The notes beneath the pieces were generated by a model. It did no database searches. It was not told where the DNA came from and saw only the letters and a program-made list of their open reading frames with translations. From Streptococcus sp. SN-1 (GTDB taxonomy: Bacteria > Bacillota > Bacilli > Lactobacillales > Streptococcaceae): 64,000 nucleotides of DNA. Every line of letters starts with the position of its first letter. Position 1 is the stretch's first letter. Positions 54,803 through 64,000 of the stretch are shown here, piece after piece. The stretch is from NCBI RefSeq assembly GCF_041154385.1, contig NZ_AP028929.1, positions 434,001 through 498,000 of the forward strand, in the 5' to 3' direction. The position numbers and the translations under genes are program-made.

Positions 54803-54831
54803 CTGACAATTTCTTTCTTTTCGTGTATAAT
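54803..54831 (+). promoter_or_regulatory. Promoter of the yefM-yoeB toxin-antitoxin operon
   Basis: CTGACA (54803-54808), a 17-bp spacer and a perfect TATAAT (54826-54831). In this family YefM, alone and with YoeB, represses its own promoter. I see no BOX element here, unlike pneumococcal copies. Confidence 0.75.
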
Positions 54832-54861
54832 AGTGGAAAAGAGGTAAAACGAGGTATGGTT

Positions 54862-55116
54862 ATGGAAGCAGTTCTTTACTCAACATTCCGAAATCATTTA
54901 AAAGACTACATGAAAAAGGTAAATGATGAATTTGAGCCTTTGACGGTGGTCAATAAAAATCCAAACGAGGACATTGTAGTTCTTTCAAAGAGCGAGTGGG
55001 ATAGTATTCAAGAAACTCTGAGAATCGCTCAAAACAAGGAACTATCTGATAAGGTTTTGCGAGGAATGGCTCAAGTCCGTGCTGGAAGCACTCAAGTCCA
55101 TGTTATTGAGGAGTGA
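54862..55116 (+). CDS. yefM: YefM-family antitoxin
   Basis: An 84-residue Phd/YefM antitoxin: MEAVLYSTFRNHLKDYM at the DNA-binding N-terminus and an acidic C-terminal half that wraps the toxin. It neutralises YoeB and represses the operon. The frame is open to 54823, but that overlaps the promoter. ATG 54862 has GAGG at a good distance, whereas ATG 54856 is only 1 bp from it. The toxin gene follows 3 bp later. Confidence 0.93.
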   Translation: MEAVLYSTFRNHLKDYMKKVNDEFEPLTVVNKNPNEDIVVLSKSEWDSIQETLRIAQNKELSDKVLRGMAQVRAGSTQVHVIEE

Positions 55117-55119
55117 GGA

Positions 55120-55374
55120 ATGCTGCTCAAGTTTACAGAAGATGCCTGGGCAGATTATTGCTACTGGCAAACTCAGGACAAGAAAACGTTAAAAAGAATC
55201 AATAACCTAATCAAGGATATTCAACGTGATCCCTTTACAGGAATAGGTAAGCCAGAACCACTCAAGTATGACTACCAAGGAGCCTGGTCACGTCGTATCG
55301 ACGCAGAAAATCGCTTGATTTATATGATGGATGGAGATAGCGTGGCTTTCTTGTCCTTTAAAGATCATTACTAA
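55120..55374 (+). CDS. yoeB: YoeB/Txe-family mRNA interferase toxin
   Basis: An 84-residue RelE-superfamily ribosome-dependent RNase. LLKFTEDAWADYCYWQ, GIGKPEPLKYDYQGAWSRRI and the C-terminal SFKDHY (catalytic His and Tyr) are intact. It cleaves mRNA in the ribosomal A site unless bound by YefM. It is complete, so the pair is probably functional. Confidence 0.94.
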   Translation: MLLKFTEDAWADYCYWQTQDKKTLKRINNLIKDIQRDPFTGIGKPEPLKYDYQGAWSRRIDAENRLIYMMDGDSVAFLSFKDHY

Positions 55375-55400
55375 GTCTACTGCGAAGTAGGCTTTTTATT
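55374..55400 (+). terminator. Terminator of yefM-yoeB
   Basis: AGTCTACT (55374-55381) and AGTAGGCT (55386-55393) form an 8-bp stem with one wobble and a GCGA loop, followed by TTTTATTTTTT. Confidence 0.8.
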
Positions 55401-55544
55401 TTTTAAATTTTTATTAGTAAGTTTAAGATAAAGTTTTTTGGAAAATGACAGAAGCCCTAGTACAAAAGACAAAAACTCAGTAAAGAAATTTAGTATATGA
55501 ACTTCGATCTTTACCCTTGAATACGCTTTATAACTCGTATTTTG

Positions 55545-55553
55545 TGGTATAAT
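55545..55553 (+). promoter_or_regulatory. Extended -10 promoter of the hsd operon
   Basis: TGGTATAAT at 55545-55553 lies 37 bp before the hsdM ATG. The nearest -35-like box (TTGAAT, 55517) is too far away, so this is an extended -10 promoter. GGGGAAG serves as RBS. Confidence 0.65.
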
Positions 55554-55589
55554 GAAGAGAATTGTTAATAATAAAAACAGGGGAAGTAA

Positions 55590-57698
55590 ATGTCTAATTT
55601 CAAAGAAAAATTACCACTATTCCAAGCAAATGACATCCAAATTTCTAATGATGTCAATACGGTTTGGTCTATCGCTAACACTCTTAGAGGAGCTTATCGA
55701 GCAGATAAGTATCGCGATGTCATTATTCCAATGTTTGTCCTGACTCGTTTAGAAGCTGCCTTGCTGCCAACCAAGGATCAGGTGGTAGCACAATACAAAG
55801 CAAATCCCAATACACCTGAGAAAGTGTTGGAGAAACTTTCAGGCTATCGTTACTACAATGTTAGTCCTTTTACGTTGGAAAATCTTCAAAACGATCCAAA
55901 TGCAATCGAGGAGAATTTTCTAGCCTATCTGGATGGCTATTCCTGTCGTGTCAAGGACATCATTGAAAACCTAAAATTTAAAGAACAAGTCCGTACCCTG
56001 GCCCAGAGTGGTCGCCTTTTCACGGTTATTAAAAAGTTCTCTCAAATTGATTTGTCTCCAAGTTCAGTCGACTCTATGCGTATGGGATACATGTTTGAGG
56101 ATATCATCCGCCGATTTTCTGAAAATGAGGAAGCGGGGTCTCACTATACCCCTCGTGAAGTTATTGCTCTGATGGTCAATCTCCTCTTGATTGAGGCAGA
56201 CGAAGAACTTTTTGTTGATAAAAAAGAGTTGAAAATACTAGACATGGCGGCTGGAACTGGGGGAATGCTGGCTACGGCTAAAAGCTATATCCGTCAGTTG
56301 AATACAGGAGCCACTGTCCGACTCTTTGGTCAGGAAGTTTTGCCTGAAACCTTTGGGATTGGTCGTGCAGATATGCTAATTCGTCAGGAAGATTCTGACT
56401 ATTTTGTGAAGGTGGATACCTTAAAAGATCCAGATCCTTTCCCAGATACTAAGATGAGCTTTGTCATCGCTAACCCTCCCTTCGGTCAAGCTTGGGGTGG
56501 TAAGGATGCGGATGATGGGGTTGAGGATGCAGTTAAGAAAGATCAGCAACTCTTTGATAAAACAGAAGGTCGTCAAGGTCGTTTTGTTGCGACTCCAGGA
56601 ACTGGCGATGCCCAACTGCTTTTCCATCTTCATGCTCTTGCAAAATTAGAAGAAAACGGTCGAGCTGCTATCATTTCAAATGGGTCTCCTCTATTTTCTG
56701 GTGGTACTTCATCTGGGGAGAGTCAGATTCGTCGTTATATCCTAGAGAATGACTTGCTAGAAGCTATAGTCGCCCTTCCAGGTCAATTTTTCTATAATAC
56801 AGGAATTGGGATTTATATCTGGATTTATAATAAAAACAAGTCTCCTGAGCGCCAGAACAAGGTTCAGTTTATCGATGCGACGGAGGAGTTTGTTCCTCTA
56901 CGTAAATCTCTAGGTCAAAAACGCCGTGAGTTGTCCCAAGATAATATCCGTCAGATCCTTCGCTGGTACGATGATTTTCAAGAAAATGACCATGTAAAAA
57001 TCTTTGACAATCAAGAGTTTCTCTATCGAGAGTTTACAGTTATGCAACCTCTGCAACGTCGTGGCCAGATAAGCGAAGAAACAATTGAGAAAGCGAAAAG
57101 TGTTCCTTTCCTAGCTAAACTATTTGATGAATACAAGTACCAAGAATTGCTAGAGATGGAACCACGTTCAGCCAAGGATGAGAAAAAATTACAGGACTTT
57201 GTAGCTGGCAAGACCAAGCAAGAAGCTATCCTGACAGCTCTTGCTAAGGGAAGCTCTGACAAGACCTATCCTAACTTTGAGAACTTTGTCCAAGTCATCA
57301 AGGACTTGCTGGGAGAGTTTAAGCTTACGCCTGCTAATATCAATGCGCTAGCCTTAGCTATGAGTGAAATGGACAAGACAGCAGAGGTTATCCGAACCAA
57401 GAGGAAAGATAAGGCAAATGAGATTGCCGATGGGATTGTCTATGATAAGACAACCAAGGACAGTGAAATCGTTAAGCTGACAGAGGATGTGGAAACCTAC
57501 TTTGCGCGTGAGGTTTATCCTCATGTACCTGACGCCCACTACTGGTTTGATGAGGAAAAAGGCTATGGAGCTGAGATTCCTTTTACCCGTTATTTCTATC
57601 ACTACCAAGCACCAGAAAGTGCTGAGAAGTTATTGGCAGAGTTCTATGACTTAGAAGCAGAACTACAGACTCTCTTGGAGGAACTCAAACATGACTAG
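55590..57698 (+). CDS. hsdM: Type I restriction-modification DNA methyltransferase subunit HsdM
   Basis: A 702-residue N6-adenine methyltransferase. An N-terminal helical HsdM_N domain is followed by the SAM-binding motif (LDMAAGTGGM, about 218-227) and the catalytic NPPF (295-298). A long C-terminal helical part follows, making it larger than the classic roughly 520-residue HsdM. It works with HsdS to methylate host DNA and with HsdR to cut unmodified DNA. It overlaps hsdS by 8 bp. Confidence 0.95.
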   Translation: MSNFKEKLPLFQANDIQISNDVNTVWSIANTLRGAYRADKYRDVIIPMFVLTRLEAALLPTKDQVVAQYKANPNTPEKVLEKLSGYRYYNVSPFTLENLQNDPNAIEENFLAYLDGYSCRVKDIIENLKFKEQVRTLAQSGRLFTVIKKFSQIDLSPSSVDSMRMGYMFEDIIRRFSENEEAGSHYTPREVIALMVNLLLIEADEELFVDKKELKILDMAAGTGGMLATAKSYIRQLNTGATVRLFGQEVLPETFGIGRADMLIRQEDSDYFVKVDTLKDPDPFPDTKMSFVIANPPFGQAWGGKDADDGVEDAVKKDQQLFDKTEGRQGRFVATPGTGDAQLLFHLHALAKLEENGRAAIISNGSPLFSGGTSSGESQIRRYILENDLLEAIVALPGQFFYNTGIGIYIWIYNKNKSPERQNKVQFIDATEEFVPLRKSLGQKRRELSQDNIRQILRWYDDFQENDHVKIFDNQEFLYREFTVMQPLQRRGQISEETIEKAKSVPFLAKLFDEYKYQELLEMEPRSAKDEKKLQDFVAGKTKQEAILTALAKGSSDKTYPNFENFVQVIKDLLGEFKLTPANINALALAMSEMDKTAEVIRTKRKDKANEIADGIVYDKTTKDSEIVKLTEDVETYFAREVYPHVPDAHYWFDEEKGYGAEIPFTRYFYHYQAPESAEKLLAEFYDLEAELQTLLEELKHD

Positions 57699-58947
57699 GA
57701 TGAAAGAGAGTGGTATCGACTGGATCGGACAGATACCAGAAGAGTGGGAAGTAGTGAGACTTCAAGATATAGGGAACTATAGAAAAGGTCCATTTGGAAG
57801 TGCGATTACTATTGATATGTTTATCGAAAAAAGTCCTTGCTCATATAAAGTTTACGAGCAGAAAAATGCAATAAGAGGCAATTGTGAAATAGGTGAAGCT
57901 TATATTCCTAAAAGTGTTTATAATAATCTGAAAAATTTTTCAGTATATCCTCTGGATATTATAGTTAGTTGTGCTGGAACAATTGGAAAATGCTATATTT
58001 TACCTGAAGACTGTGAACAAGGAATTATTAATCAGGCTCTAATGAGAGTGAGAGTAAATAAAAGCGTTAATTTAGAGTATTTTCTTTATATTTTCGATAT
58101 TGTTTTATCGTATGCTGCTATCAAATATAGTAACGGAAGTGCAATTAAGAACATACCTCCATTTAATGTTCTTAATAAACTAAGAGTAACTTTGCCTTCA
58201 AATATTGAGCAACATCAAATTGTAAATTATCTTGATAAGAAAACTGCTCAGTTGGATAAGGTAAAAAGTTTACTAGAGGAGCAAATTCAAAAACTCAAAG
58301 ACTACCGTGCTAGCTTGATTTATGAGACTGTCACAAAAGGATTGGATAAAAACGTCCCCATGAAATATTCAGGTATCGACTGGATCGGACAGGTGCCTGA
58401 AGGGTGGGGAGTGAGTCGCCTAAAATATTATTTTGATATATATGCTGGAGGGGATATAGACGAAAGAAATACAGTTGAGGAATACACAGAAAGTCATCCT
58501 TATCCCGTTCTTTCTAATTCTCTCGAAAATGACGGTGTGTTGGGGTACACTAATAAATATCGATTTAAAAATAATTGTGTCACTGTGACTGGTAGGGGAG
58601 ATGTTGGAAAAGCAGTGTATAGGAATATTAAATTTTATCCTGTTGTTCGCTTATTGGTTTGTGTTCCAAAAAGTCAGGTGGATTGTAGATTTGTAACGTA
58701 TTGGATAAATTCAGCTATAATTGAGAAAAATCAAACAGCAGTTTCACAATTAACAATTCAAATGTTAGGGGAACTTATCTTTACAAATGTACCATATGTA
58801 GAACAGAAAAAAATCGCTGATTTCTTAGACGAAAAAACGGTTCAAATTGATAAATTAATTCAAATCAAGAACCAACAAATTAAAAATATTAACAAACAAC
58901 GACAAACTCTTATTTATGATTATGTAACAGGAAAGAGGAGAGTTTAG
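57691..58947 (+). CDS. hsdS: Type I restriction-modification specificity subunit HsdS
   Basis: A 418-residue protein with two target-recognition domains (about 15-175 and 230-380), each followed by a helical spacer (KKTAQLDKVKSLLEEQI, then EKTVQIDKLIQIKNQQI). Each half opens with the same motif (SGIDWIGQIPEEW and SGIDWIGQVPEGW). It sets the recognition sequence, which cannot be deduced here. Start at 57691 overlaps hsdM; an internal ATG at 57700 is the alternative. The variable halves are more AT-rich than the conserved parts, as usual for exchanged recognition domains. Confidence 0.93.
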   Translation: MTRMKESGIDWIGQIPEEWEVVRLQDIGNYRKGPFGSAITIDMFIEKSPCSYKVYEQKNAIRGNCEIGEAYIPKSVYNNLKNFSVYPLDIIVSCAGTIGKCYILPEDCEQGIINQALMRVRVNKSVNLEYFLYIFDIVLSYAAIKYSNGSAIKNIPPFNVLNKLRVTLPSNIEQHQIVNYLDKKTAQLDKVKSLLEEQIQKLKDYRASLIYETVTKGLDKNVPMKYSGIDWIGQVPEGWGVSRLKYYFDIYAGGDIDERNTVEEYTESHPYPVLSNSLENDGVLGYTNKYRFKNNCVTVTGRGDVGKAVYRNIKFYPVVRLLVCVPKSQVDCRFVTYWINSAIIEKNQTAVSQLTIQMLGELIFTNVPYVEQKKIADFLDEKTVQIDKLIQIKNQQIKNINKQRQTLIYDYVTGKRRV

Positions 58948-59000
58948 AAGTGTAACTTGTATCTGGTTGAAACAAGTGAATGATAGGATGGTCCTAAAAT

Positions 59001-61742
59001 ATGAAAGAAAATTATAGTCTATCTGTATCTCAAATAAAGAAATCGATTAAGGAAAATTCTTTAATCTTATTTGTTGGTGCGGGGATATCTGCTAATTCAA
59101 ATTTACCTACTTGGAAAGAATTGATTCAATCATTTAAAAAAGAATTGGATTTGCCAGATGGCGATTCGGATGATTATTTACGAGTTGCTCAGTATTATTA
59201 TGATACATTTGGGAAAAATCAGTATACAAAAAAGATAGAGGAAATTTTTTTTAGTAAGGGAACAAGTAAACCAAACGAGTTACATACACTAATAGAGAAA
59301 ATAGCTCCGAAACATATTATTACGACAAACTATGATTCTCTACTGGAAGATCAGTTTGAAAATGGCTTGTTAAAGTACAATGTCGTCGCTGAGGATAAAG
59401 ATATTCCATATACAAGTTCTGAAAGATATTTAATTAAAATGCATGGTGACTTCAGCAAAAAAAATATTGTTTTGAAAGAAGATGATTATTTAGACTATGC
59501 GTTAAATTTTCCAATGGTTTCTACTTTAATTCAGTCGTTGATAATGAACCATACCTTATTGTTCGTAGGCTATTCTTTAGGTGATTCGACTTTTAATTCT
59601 ATATTTCGATTGATTCAAAACACATTTAAATTAGATGCTAAATTCGCCTATTTTTATACACCTGAAGAACCTTCGATGATTATTAGAGAGTATTATAAAA
59701 AACAAGGCATTATCATTGTTTCTAACGAAACTTCTTCAGTTGAAGAAACGGACAATCAGAACAAAAAGTATATTAGTACAAAGAGATTTTTAGAGACTCT
59801 TTCTGAAAATAGGAATAACACGGTAAAGAATGCTGAAGATTTATGGAATCAACTTGCTTTTTTAGATAGGCTTAGTTTTATCGATTCGAAAGATTTTTCG
59901 ACATACTCCACTTTAAAGAGAAGAGCTTTAAACAGGGATGATAGCTATAGCTGGTTTGAAAATGATAGCTTAAGATTTGAACTTGAGGATCATGAAGAGT
60001 TACGAAATATGGTCACTAACAAATCTCTCTTAAAACATTTTTTTGATATTGAATTAGAAGAAACAAGAGAATTCAAAGCAAATAGATTTTTAATGGAGGC
60101 GTTCGAGTTATATGAGGAAAGACAATATGCTTTCGCAAAAGCAAAGTTTAGAGAGTTAGCGAATATAGCATTTCGCCAGAAAGACTATTTTAATTTTCTT
60201 GTGTGTGAATTTAATTTTCAACACATCCCCATAAATTTTTTTGAAGAAGCACCTAATTATGCTGAATCATTATATAGTGGAGAACTAAATGAACTCACGG
60301 AACAAATCATTAACTCGGTTACAGGTGATGAGAAAAAAATTATAGAATTTTTTAGAGATTCAATCCTTAACTTCAATTTTTTATACAGAAAATTAGAAAC
60401 GATTAATGAATTATTCGATAAAATTCGTGAAGAGCATGAAAACTATAGGAGGGGAGGACAGTCTTTTAATAACCATCTCTATAATGCTGAATTTGAAGTG
60501 AAAAATCTTTATAACTTTATAAAACTAAACTGTTTGTGTGTTGAACATTATAAGATGTTTAAATCAATCATTAATAGATACTTAGAAATGTTATTACTCA
60601 GTTATGATAATTCATATGTAAATCATGAAAAATTTATTTCTGAAGGGACAGCATCAATAATTAGGGAACTTGATTTGGACGATGTTCAATTGATTCTTCC
60701 TAGTATCGATTTTAAAGTAGTAGATTTATATTTTAGAAATTACTCATTTAGTAAAATTAAAGTTACTGTAGAAGCAGAAGAATTTTTATTTAACAGAATA
60801 ACTTATCTGCAAGAAAAGGTTAAATCTCATGTAGATACTCATTTCCATGAACTTAGAAATATGCTAAATTTTCTGCCTTTTATTGATGATGTAGACGTAT
60901 CAAGAATAATAAATATTTTAGACTCTCAAACACTATACTTTAATTTAGCTAAAGAAATTAAGGGTCTCATTAGAGTTGTCCGTGATAATAAAGGCGCTAT
61001 TAATGATGATTTGTTGAAATCTAAGATAGTTGATATTGTTAATAAACATTTAAATATAATTTTGAAAAATAATTTTTCTTTATATCATTCATCGTATCCT
61101 TTATATTCTCAGTTATTAGAATACTGCTCAACTGAAGAAGAAACTGCAAGAGTAGTGCTTGAAAAGCTCAATATAGATATTCTAAAAATTAAATATCAAA
61201 ATGATGATGTTGAAAATATTATGGAGTATTCTGATTTGTTACGTCATTTATTTAACAATCTTGAAGAGGATACTAAAAAAGATGTTCTAGAAATCCTAAG
61301 TGCTTATGAGGACTCAGAAAATATCTTTTATTACAAAGTAATTGAACTGATGTTTTCAAAAGTGTATGATTTTCCTAAGCTACAAAACAAAATCTATCAA
61401 CACTTAATTAAAAGAATTAATGAGGGGCATGAAGATGGCATAATAACAATACCAGATCCAAGAGAACAGTCAGTAGGTGATTTATACAATCTAAGCAGAG
61501 AGGGATATTTTTCAGAGTTTGACATTTTAAAAGATATCAAAGAAAATATTCGAGGACTCTACCCTGAAGTAGACTGGACTTGGTACGATGATAGAAGTGA
61601 TGAGGTAATTCATCGTTTATTAGAGTACAGAACTCCAATTAATATTAAAACTTATTTTTCAAAAAATGAAGAAGATAATAAATTGATTGATGAGTATATA
61701 ATCAGAACTCTCAATGAAGAAAAAATTACGTTTAAGAAATGA
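59001..61742 (+). CDS. SIR2-domain protein inserted in the type I restriction operon (putative antiphage NADase)
   Basis: A 913-residue protein. Residues about 10-250 are a SIR2-like domain: VGAGIS (25-30), TTNYD (108-112, catalytic Asn110), HG (His148) and GYSLGDSTF (190-198). This is the pattern of defence SIR2 domains such as ThsA and DSR proteins that cleave NAD+ in infected cells. From about 280 to 913 the protein is polar and mostly helical with no domain I recognise; it may sense phage or regulate the enzyme. It lies 53 bp after hsdS and 34 bp before hsdR in the same direction, so it is probably co-transcribed. It is clearly more AT-rich than hsdM and hsdR, consistent with separate acquisition. 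Activity and role are inferred. Confidence 0.82.
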   Translation: MKENYSLSVSQIKKSIKENSLILFVGAGISANSNLPTWKELIQSFKKELDLPDGDSDDYLRVAQYYYDTFGKNQYTKKIEEIFFSKGTSKPNELHTLIEKIAPKHIITTNYDSLLEDQFENGLLKYNVVAEDKDIPYTSSERYLIKMHGDFSKKNIVLKEDDYLDYALNFPMVSTLIQSLIMNHTLLFVGYSLGDSTFNSIFRLIQNTFKLDAKFAYFYTPEEPSMIIREYYKKQGIIIVSNETSSVEETDNQNKKYISTKRFLETLSENRNNTVKNAEDLWNQLAFLDRLSFIDSKDFSTYSTLKRRALNRDDSYSWFENDSLRFELEDHEELRNMVTNKSLLKHFFDIELEETREFKANRFLMEAFELYEERQYAFAKAKFRELANIAFRQKDYFNFLVCEFNFQHIPINFFEEAPNYAESLYSGELNELTEQIINSVTGDEKKIIEFFRDSILNFNFLYRKLETINELFDKIREEHENYRRGGQSFNNHLYNAEFEVKNLYNFIKLNCLCVEHYKMFKSIINRYLEMLLLSYDNSYVNHEKFISEGTASIIRELDLDDVQLILPSIDFKVVDLYFRNYSFSKIKVTVEAEEFLFNRITYLQEKVKSHVDTHFHELRNMLNFLPFIDDVDVSRIINILDSQTLYFNLAKEIKGLIRVVRDNKGAINDDLLKSKIVDIVNKHLNIILKNNFSLYHSSYPLYSQLLEYCSTEEETARVVLEKLNIDILKIKYQNDDVENIMEYSDLLRHLFNNLEEDTKKDVLEILSAYEDSENIFYYKVIELMFSKVYDFPKLQNKIYQHLIKRINEGHEDGIITIPDPREQSVGDLYNLSREGYFSEFDILKDIKENIRGLYPEVDWTWYDDRSDEVIHRLLEYRTPINIKTYFSKNEEDNKLIDEYIIRTLNEEKITFKK

Positions 61743-61776
61743 ACTGAACCAACGAAATGTTAGAAAGTGAGAAACT

Positions 61777-64000
61777 ATGGCAAATTTGGGCTTGAAGGAG
61801 CGCTATGATTTCCAGCAGTGGATTATCAAAGATTTGAGAGATAAGAATGACTATATTCAGCGGGACGCTACTTGCTACGATCCTAGATTAGCCATGGATG
61901 TGGAACTCCTGTGGGATTTTCTGATGGAGACCCAAGAGGAGACCATGGACTATCTCCTTAAAAAGCTTAGCAAGGAGACAATAGTCAATCTGATTAATAA
62001 AGAAATCGTCAAGGGTGGCTTTTTATTCGCTTTGAAAGAAGGAGTTTTTATTGAAAATAAACAACTTCGTCTTCTTTATCGTAAACCTGCTACTAGTTTT
62101 AATGAAAAAGCTGTTCAGCAATACCAAGCCAATTGTCTGTCTGTTATGGAAGAAGTGGTTTATGAGGAGAGCGACCGCATTGACCTTGTTATCTTTATCA
62201 ATGGATTAGCACTATTTGCTATCGAACTTAAGTTTAATCCCAGTGGTCAGTCTGTTCAGGATGCCATCAAGCAGCTCAAGAGGCGCAATCCTAAGAACCG
62301 TCTTTTCCGTTTTGAACAGGGAGTCTTGGCTTCCTTTGCGGTGGATACCCTAGAAGTCTATATGACGACGCAATTGAAAGGACAAGAAACCTATTTTCTA
62401 CCTTTTAATGTGGGGAAAGGGGAAGGTATTGAGATGGGAAGTGGCAACCCTCACAACCCTGATGGTGCCGATACAGACTATTTGTGGCTTGATGTCTTGA
62501 CCAAGGATAGTATTCTCCAGTTAATAGAGAGTTTTATCTTTTTTGAGATGGATAAGCATAAAAAGAAGACCCTGATTTTCCCGAGATACCATCAGCGAAG
62601 AGCAGTTAGCCGTCTCCTAGAAGACATGAAAGTCAACCATACTGACAGTAATTATCTGATTCAGCATTCGGCTGGTTCAGGTAAAACCAATACCATTGCC
62701 TGGTTGGCTCATAGTTTAGTTTCTCTTCATGATGATCAGAATCAAAACATCGTGGATACTGTATTAATCGTTACAGACCGTATCGTAGTTGATCGTCAGT
62801 TACAAGAAGCAGTCAAGGAAATTTCCCACAAGCCTGGAGTGGTCAAGGTAATGGGCGACAAAGAAACCTCCAGTGACTTAGCGGATGCGATTGCAGGAAA
62901 TACAAAAATCATAGCTACGACTATTCATAAGTTTGCCCAGATTAACCAATCCAACTGGATGTCTGTAGGGAACACTGCGAAAAAGAAATTTGCCATCCTG
63001 ATTGATGAAGCCCACAGTTCAACGACAGGATCCTATATGAGTTCGGTTAGTCAAGTCTTGACAGAAACAGATACAGAAGATGGAACTATCGATGAGATTC
63101 AAGAAGTAAGTGTTGCGGATGCTATCGAGCAGGAGATTGCTCGGACAGGTAAGCAGGACAATGTCTCAATCATTGCCTTCACCGCAACTCCAAAGGCGAC
63201 AACTCTACAGCTATTTGGTACAACACAAGCAGATGGTTCTAAAGCTCCTTTTGATGTTTATAGTATGAAGCAAGCTATTGAGGAAGGTTTTATTCTAGAT
63301 GTTTTAGATAACTATACGACTTATAAGACCTATTACAAGCTCAATAAAGCAGTCGAAGAAGATCCTGAGCTAAAAACGACTCTTGCTAAGCGTAAGATTG
63401 CAAAGTTTGTAGAATTATCTGATGAAAATATCAATCAAAAGGTTGAAATTATCATGGATCACTTTATCAGTCATGATATTATGGCTGAATTGGGTGGTCA
63501 AGGTAAGGCTATGATTGTGACTTCGGGTCGTGAGGTAGCAGTTAAGTATCAATTGGCCTTTCAAAAGTATTTCAAAGACCACAGTATCACTAGTATTGGA
63601 ACACTGATTGCCTTTTCTGGCAAGGTTGATTACCAAGGTGGTGAATATACTGAGTCGCAAATGAATCAGGTCAAGGAAGATTATTTGAAAGATCATTTTG
63701 ATACGGAAGACTACCAAATCCTGATTGTGGCAAATAAGTATCAGACAGGGTTTGACCAACCCAAACTGGTTGCTATGTATGTAGATAAAAAGTTGCGAAG
63801 TGTTGCTGCGGTGCAAACATTGTCTCGTTTGAATCGTATCTATAGAGGATACAACAAGAAGACCTTTATCCTTGATTTTAAAAATACTTATGACGATATT
63901 CGCTCAGCTTTTTCTCCCTACTACCGTGAGACTATTTTAGCAGATACAGTCACACCTAGTGATGTCTTGACCTTGGATCGGAAAATTGATGAGTATGGTA
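61777..64000 (+). CDS. hsdR: Type I restriction endonuclease subunit HsdR (3' end outside window)
   Basis: 741 codons are visible from ATG 61777 and the frame stays open to the window end. The N-terminal nuclease domain has the PD-(D/E)xK pattern (acidic residue in RIDLVIF, then ELK at 150-152). The motor domain has Walker A AGSGKT (299-304), DEAH (410-413) and later helicase motifs (IIAFTATPKAT, VANKYQTGFDQP, QTLSRLNRIYRG). HsdR translocates DNA with ATP and cuts unmethylated DNA as part of the HsdR-HsdM-HsdS complex. It follows the SIR2 gene by 34 bp. Its base composition matches hsdM rather than the SIR2 gene. Confidence 0.95.
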   Translation, partial: MANLGLKERYDFQQWIIKDLRDKNDYIQRDATCYDPRLAMDVELLWDFLMETQEETMDYLLKKLSKETIVNLINKEIVKGGFLFALKEGVFIENKQLRLLYRKPATSFNEKAVQQYQANCLSVMEEVVYEESDRIDLVIFINGLALFAIELKFNPSGQSVQDAIKQLKRRNPKNRLFRFEQGVLASFAVDTLEVYMTTQLKGQETYFLPFNVGKGEGIEMGSGNPHNPDGADTDYLWLDVLTKDSILQLIESFIFFEMDKHKKKTLIFPRYHQRRAVSRLLEDMKVNHTDSNYLIQHSAGSGKTNTIAWLAHSLVSLHDDQNQNIVDTVLIVTDRIVVDRQLQEAVKEISHKPGVVKVMGDKETSSDLADAIAGNTKIIATTIHKFAQINQSNWMSVGNTAKKKFAILIDEAHSSTTGSYMSSVSQVLTETDTEDGTIDEIQEVSVADAIEQEIARTGKQDNVSIIAFTATPKATTLQLFGTTQADGSKAPFDVYSMKQAIEEGFILDVLDNYTTYKTYYKLNKAVEEDPELKTTLAKRKIAKFVELSDENINQKVEIIMDHFISHDIMAELGGQGKAMIVTSGREVAVKYQLAFQKYFKDHSITSIGTLIAFSGKVDYQGGEYTESQMNQVKEDYLKDHFDTEDYQILIVANKYQTGFDQPKLVAMYVDKKLRSVAAVQTLSRLNRIYRGYNKKTFILDFKNTYDDIRSAFSPYYRETILADTVTPSDVLTLDRKIDEYG

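Follow-up and report, generated by a model that had tools for sequence, protein, structure and literature searches.

The gene SIR2X, at positions 59,001 to 61,742 of a 64,000-nucleotide stretch of Streptococcus sp. SN-1 (contig NZ_AP028929.1, positions 434,001 to 498,000; hereafter the window, whose numbering is used throughout), occupies the hsdS-hsdR interval in a type I restriction-modification (R-M) operon. SIR2X is probably an autonomous abortive-infection NADase of the DSR2 type that is carried in an exchangeable hsdS-hsdR cassette. The gene and its parts are as follows.

59001..61742, + strand: SIR2X, the SIR2 gene and slot cargo, 913 aa, DSR2-like NADase candidate.
59001..59819, + strand: N-terminal SIR2 domain, residues 1-273.
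59328-59330 and 59442-59444, + strand: codons of N110 and H148.
59820..61739, + strand: C-terminal helical part, residues 274-913, homologous by hhalign and VIA-align to the middle domain and C-terminal solenoid of DSR2 (the DSR2 sensor region).

The reading frame begins with ATG and contains no internal stop, and a search of the host genome with SIR2X returns a single match. The only Pfam family reported at E ≤ 0.1 is SIR2_2, which covers residues 104-237 (E 1.2e-24). In the alignment, N110 and H148 correspond to N133 and H171 of DSR2, to which PMC11087589 assigns a catalytic role, and the pair is identical in 169 of 169 aligned SIR2X homologues of 880-960 aa. The 913-aa frame with intact Asn110 and His148, as given in a preliminary description of this DNA, is therefore borne out. 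The database annotation of the family reads only “SIR2 family protein”. A second SIR2_2 gene, a 1062-aa open frame, is present in the host genome (G000:C1:1194197-1194526, L127; G and L numbers are our genome and locus handles).

According to the preliminary description, the C-terminal 630 residues match no known domain, which holds for Pfam but not for more sensitive comparisons: the structure prediction and remote-homology search that it proposed return a known relative, and this part is, judged from profiles and a predicted fold, homologous to the middle and C-terminal domains of DSR2. Both the predicted fold and the profile-profile comparison match the middle and C-terminal solenoid domains end to end. 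Restricted to the C-terminal parts, hhalign gives a probability of 98.1 and an E-value of 1.1e-13, with far lower values for the controls, and Foldseek and VIA-align of the predicted fold support the homology (VIA-align rows 8k98_C, 8ygo_A, 8ygk_A and 8yln_A). The sequence identity to DSR2 is approximately 30% in the SIR2 part and 12-14% beyond it, and in a plain profile search of the Protein Data Bank (PDB) the second stretch reaches only 5.0 bits (E 56), which is non-significant alone. The PADLOC Dsr2 model does not match SIR2X at E ≤ 0.1; at E ≤ 1e-5 the model also misses the G747 protein, which matches solved DSR2 over its whole length. In the tree of SIR2 domains, SIR2X belongs to a separate clade (98/96) adjoining DSR2 and four order-level rows, the grouping of DSR2 with these rows being weak (85/59) and the program flagging a long branch in the outgroup; in related genomes, ThsA-like proteins fall into a different clade. 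At L046, a gene for a DSR2-like protein of 988 aa follows distant hsdM- and hsdR-like genes at a distance of about 3 kb.

By analogy with DSR2, SIR2X would exist at rest as an inactive oligomer, and a phage protein of late infection (the tail tube protein for B. subtilis DSR2) may bind its C-terminal part, upon which the SIR2 domains would hydrolyse NAD+ and the cell would stop before phage release. The presence of a DSR2-type sensor domain makes activation explicable without HsdR. It is unlikely that SIR2X is DSR2-shaped and yet acts otherwise, by another NAD+-consuming reaction or upon a non-virion trigger (plasmid or stress signals); the low C-terminal identity and the separate clade of the family would permit this, but the catalytic pair is invariant and, among solved structures, the SIR2 part is closest to NADases of defence systems (DSR2, ThsA and KomC).

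The operon surrounding SIR2X comprises the following features.

55373-55394, + strand: terminator-like hairpin, 3' of yoeB and upstream of the hsd operon, a consensus match only.
55545..55553, + strand: extended -10-like site (TGGTATAAT) ahead of hsdM, a putative promoter.
55590-57698, + strand: hsdM, 702 aa, N6 methylase subunit (Pfam HsdM_N, N6_Mtase).
57691-58947, + strand: hsdS, 418 aa, specificity subunit (Pfam Methylase_S).
61777..64000, + strand: 5' part of hsdR (741 codons); the full 990-aa frame runs past the end of the window.

The three hsd genes are intact and co-directional with SIR2X, which follows the hsdS stop codon by 53 bp and precedes the hsdR ATG by 34 bp; SIR2X thus has the close, co-directional placement previously described, as expected of an embedded defence of a type I R-M operon. 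Within 55300-62000, the + strand contains two terminator-like sites, one before hsdM (55373-55394) and one inside it (56383-56399), and none is found between hsdS and hsdR. The totals in the scan are at chance level (4 terminator-like sites versus 3.4 in shuffles, and 26 promoter-like sites versus 25.3), so co-transcription of hsdS, SIR2X and hsdR can only be inferred; SIR2X is probably transcribed from the hsdM promoter. The GC content of SIR2X (0.285) is lower than that of hsdM (0.424) and hsdR (0.391), as reported earlier, and hsdS (0.331) is AT-rich too. Co-directionality, the lack of an intervening terminator-like site and the foreign-looking composition agree with the earlier proposal of a putative NADase-type SIR2 defence protein within the operon. 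A toxin-antitoxin pair of the YefM/YoeB type (54823-55374) lies directly 5' of hsdM, and its presence at this site varies in relatives. A second type I hsd locus is located approximately 20-30 kb downstream in the host genome (G000:C1:519567, 527300), with counterparts in G014, G103, G226 and G240. The host genome is 2.11 Mb, and its rny product shares 99.8% identity with the S. mitis 321A counterpart, which suggests a mitis-group species.

Relatives of HsdR are found in 20 of 284 Streptococcus genomes, sampled at one genome per species, such that strain-level exchange is visible only through species. Among the 15 loci with an HsdR at least 76% identical (including G046, whose hsdR is broken), the hsdS-hsdR interval is occupied in all 15 by six kinds of cargo: SIR2X (2), a DUF6731-like pair (6), a Kiwa-like pair (3), a pair of 213 and 349 aa (2), and one cargo each of the PDC-M67A and PDC-S42 types. 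The survey of hsdS-X-hsdR operons proposed in the preliminary description therefore recovers SIR2X in two close loci and other cargo in 13. Cargo models were run on representatives, the remaining loci were assigned by blastp clusters, and the 180-aa cargo of G254 lies outside the scan. The defence-model matches among the cargo are to Kiwa or candidate-defence (PDC) models, and six slots are without a defence match; the interval looks like a slot whose content varies from strain to strain and in several cases is defence-like. At the chromosomal site of the window, between tmcAL and rny, eight loci including the window carry five kinds of cargo, and among the best 30 of 233 genomes, the site upstream of rny contains hsdR in 5 and no hsd gene in 24, with one ending at a contig end. 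In the five distant loci (HsdR approximately 40% identical), the interval holds a 380-aa protein in four and no gene in one (G043).

Several of these loci have features of their own. The Kiwa-like KwaA/KwaB pair occupies the slot in three Streptococcus genomes (L072, L075 and L077). The DUF6731-like pair, of about 283 and about 160 aa, is found in six genomes (L069, L073, L078, L079, L080 and L081) and is a candidate two-gene system; in the scanned representative its weak DUF6731 match falls short of the cut-off (24.4 versus 27 bits), and no defence model matches the pair. The slots of L070 and L071 contain the 213-aa protein (PDC-M39A-type) and the 349-aa protein, the latter without a Pfam or PADLOC match. 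In G206 (L074), hsdS is reduced to fragments while hsdM, the PDC-S42-type cargo and hsdR are open, and in G046 (L081) the slot cargo and a Fic gene are open beside the broken hsdR. A Fic gene is additionally present in seven of the 15 close loci, none of them at the tmcAL-rny site (SoFic and PDC-S04 models on the three scanned). The 380-aa protein of the distant hsd family (L082, L083, L084 and L086) is conserved, with a weak HEPN_Swt1 match below the cut-off.

The cargo was compared with the two target recognition domains (TRDs) of HsdS, the bounds of which were set by hand; G206 was excluded owing to its fragmentary hsdS. G226 and G158 are alike in TRD2 (0.99) and G226 and G104 in TRD1 (0.97), with different cargo in both pairs, whereas G158 and G104 have similar cargo (97-99.5%) and unlike TRDs (0.29 and 0.26). 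The window and G226 share the SIR2X type of cargo with unlike TRDs (0.19 and 0.11). As a pattern, the cargo is exchanged independently of the two HsdS recognition domains, which argues against a cargo tuned to one HsdS.

The fate of SIR2X outside an intact operon can be followed in three genomes, G103, G014 and G240, in which the gene order is tmcAL-yefM-yoeB-SIR2X-rny; the S. mitis strains 321A and SK608 are among the hsd-less carriers. In these loci hsdM is gone, and only remnants of hsdS (approximately 90 bp) and hsdR (approximately 155-210 bp) are present. The 5' flank of SIR2X aligns with the yoeB-hsdM spacer to just before hsdM, and then with the last 90 bp or so of hsdS and the hsdS-SIR2X spacer, and the 3' flank aligns with the first 155-210 bp or so of hsdR and then with the spacer after hsdR. 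These relics were recognized by blastn matches that include 40-60 bp of SIR2X and by local alignments, each set against 100 mononucleotide shuffles, in which the hsdS tail scores 160, 160 and 129 (shuffle maxima 53-59) and the hsdR head 145, 145 and 124 (shuffle maxima 35-49). The alignments indicate an ancestral hsdM-hsdS-SIR2X-hsdR arrangement, from which deletions on either side of an intact SIR2X removed hsdM and the greater part of both hsdS and hsdR. The extended -10-like site of hsdM is retained and now lies 169-171 bp 5' of SIR2X. Because the SIR2X genes of G103 and G014 are identical, the three genomes provide two distinct sequences; between G103 and G240, 4.1% of the SIR2X bases differ, with a dN of 0.029, a dS of 0.099, a ratio of 0.29 and no length change, versus differences of 12-12.5% plus gaps in the flanks. 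SIR2X thus looks constrained, the pattern being that expected if selection continued after the loss of hsd, although recombination could have a share in it. The reverse loss is observed in G226, where HsdM and HsdR are full length and 99% and 98% identical while SIR2X carries a premature in-frame stop.

SIR2X is matched in 16 of the 284 Streptococcus genomes at E ≤ 1e-20, with a full-length relative in seven and only ThsA-sized proteins in the rest; order- and class-level searches add G535, G587 and G839 (the G839 copy with a stop), for a total of ten genomes. SIR2X lies between hsdS and hsdR in two of the ten (the window genome and G226) and at the same chromosomal site, flanked by hsd remnants, in the three described above, and a distant family member is located near a distant type I operon in G535. 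In the other four (G161, G274, G587 and G839), no hsd gene is recognized in the flanks read, as determined for distant genomes by blastp to the window Hsd proteins at E ≤ 1e-4, which divergent ones could escape, some flanks ending at contig ends. A search of 5.8 billion proteins yields 1415 matches among 7993 scored candidates, and the 120 matches listed include S. salivarius and other streptococci. The preliminary description would have been weakened by a gene confined to this strain; close homologues are in fact numerous. Among phage and plasmid records, 4 of 50,697 and 306 of 72,556, respectively, match SIR2X, but none covers 80% of it and those listed match the SIR2 part only, for which reason a phage or plasmid origin was rejected. 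Three loci in viral contigs match residues 9-250 at 28%, and a viral structure library gives no match at E ≤ 0.001. Two relatives of SIR2X (L025 9589-12372 and L120 9750-12542) are located a few kb downstream of ribosomal-protein-like genes, and L025, judged by eye, looks like an integrated element.

The preliminary description suggested that SIR2X is a backup, perhaps triggered when restriction fails or is inhibited. This idea finds no support in the full-length, constrained SIR2X of the three genomes lacking the cognate hsd genes, in the intact hsd genes beside a stopped SIR2X in G226, in the four genomes with no hsd gene in the flanks read, or in the independence of cargo and HsdS. Restriction and SIR2X seem to be neighbours rather than a circuit, each losable while the other stays, and the idea of a two-layer defence stands only in a weak form. 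A related alternative is an R-M-gated backup similar to PrrC/EcoprrI, in which the Hsd complex silences SIR2X and a phage anti-restriction protein releases it. The position of SIR2X in the operon, the distant family member near a type I operon in G535 and the precedent of PrrC, a proven hsd-linked effector that its R-M enzyme keeps inactive until the phage anti-restriction peptide Stp switches it on (PMC2610378), are in its favor; moreover, a further type I system, at a distance of roughly 20 kb or more, is present in the hsd-deleted genomes and could help in trans, which weighs against full independence of SIR2X. Nevertheless, SIR2X persists without its cognate Hsd proteins and has a DSR2-type sensor part of its own, the same cargo type stands beside unrelated recognition domains, and four of ten family members have no hsd in the flanks read. 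R-M-gated control was therefore rejected as the leading explanation on the basis of the relics and is considered improbable.

The edges of the slot were mapped by comparison with six loci that carry other cargo.

58800..58947, + strand: left edge, the conserved hsdS 3' end, with 80-90% identity to the six loci; the similarity ends at the hsdS stop codon.
61755..61776, + strand: right edge, where similarity to the same six loci restarts at 61755-61762, just before the hsdR start.

In the six loci, similarity to the window extends through the hsdS tail as far as 58946-58947 and picks up again 15-22 bp ahead of hsdR, such that the right edges coincide within 8 bp in six of six. A further break is found in all seven other tmcAL-rny loci aligned to the window, at 57748-57753 in the first recognition domain of hsdS. 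The GC content of the interval, measured in eight of the 14 other loci, is 0.27-0.31 in the six same-site loci and 0.34-0.37 in the two others, and the AT-richness thus belongs to the slot cargo rather than to SIR2X specifically. That the interval is merely an insertion-tolerant gap, filled by chance and with a meaningless neighbourhood, is very unlikely, for although the cargo is AT-rich and varied and six slots hold genes without a defence match, no slot is empty in the 15 close loci, the right edges coincide and defence-type cargo (Kiwa-like, PDC models) recurs. With SIR2X taken as exchangeable cargo, the conserved hsdS 3' and hsdR 5' edges may act as homology arms through which strains recombine and swap the cargo.

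Taken together, these observations could tentatively be read as a locus of three cartridges, namely two HsdS recognition domains and the cargo slot, separated by conserved stretches (the hsdM end, hsdS centre, hsdS tail and hsdR start) and each separately exchangeable by recombination in naturally transformable streptococci; leftover cargo would become free-standing and fused to the old hsdM promoter, and SIR2X would represent a new DSR2-sister clade with a sensor part in its own arms race. If so, one incoming fragment could renew the cut specificity, the backing abortive-infection protein, or both. The “SIR2 family protein” family gains a concrete mechanism proposal in DSR2-type sensing, and the relics suggest that a defence cargo can persist once its carrier restriction operon has been lost. 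The slot is also a mapped place in which to seek genes not yet linked to defence, such as the DUF6731-like pair (6 of 15 loci) and the 213- and 349-aa pair (2 of 15).

It is already known that type I operons can harbour embedded defences, also in the hsdS-hsdR interval. A literature search, with preprints outside its scope, returns nothing that combines SIR2, hsdR, hsdS and type I restriction-modification, and hsdS and hsdR with Streptococcus yield only unrelated titles; passages of PMC12813430 contribute nothing on the subject. As far as these searches reach, the new elements are a DSR2-sister clade as cargo, its survival after the loss of hsd and the three independently exchanged parts. DarTG2 is reported from the hsdS-hsdR interval of E. 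coli (PMC12255303), and TgvAB of V. cholerae VPI-2 lies inside a type I operon and protects independently of the restriction activity of HsdR (PMC11411939); “guilt-by-embedding” candidates of a preprint by Payne et al. are cited in these two and in PMC12988326, and SIR2X could be among them. Similar to SIR2X, all of these are additional defence genes between hsd genes; the present case differs in that its cargo is a DSR2-like sirtuin, in the tracing of the slot through 15 loci and six kinds of cargo, in the mapping of its edges, and in the hsd relics, where the cargo has survived the operon. SIR2/HerA pairs adjoin R-M genes in S. thermophilus (PMC11514479), and rloC of G. kaustophilus adjoins an hsdR relic (PMC2610378). 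The anticodon nucleases PrrC and RloC resemble SIR2X as suicide-type effectors beside hsd genes, but PrrC is a different enzyme whose R-M partner keeps it silent, whereas SIR2X is retained without its cognate hsd.

Among the NADases, the Thoeris protein ThsA is the best PADLOC model for SIR2X by E-value (8e-37, residues 8-218 only), and both proteins have a SIR2 NADase domain. ThsA carries a SLOG domain (PMC11087589). ThsA models and structures cover only the SIR2 part of SIR2X (residues up to approximately 284), and the rest matches DSR2; membership of SIR2X in Thoeris, as suggested by PADLOC, was set aside because the similarity ends with the SIR2 part. The NADase that SIR2X matches along its full extent is DSR2 of B. 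subtilis (defence-associated sirtuin 2; PDB 8wkx, 8wks and 8wyb), a single-gene, phage-activated NADase. As in DSR2, a single gene encodes an N-terminal SIR2 domain with the Asn/His pair, a middle domain and a C-terminal helical solenoid, and the two proteins are colinear over the whole length; SIR2X differs in its size (913 versus 1005 aa), its separate clade in the SIR2 tree and its position within a type I operon.
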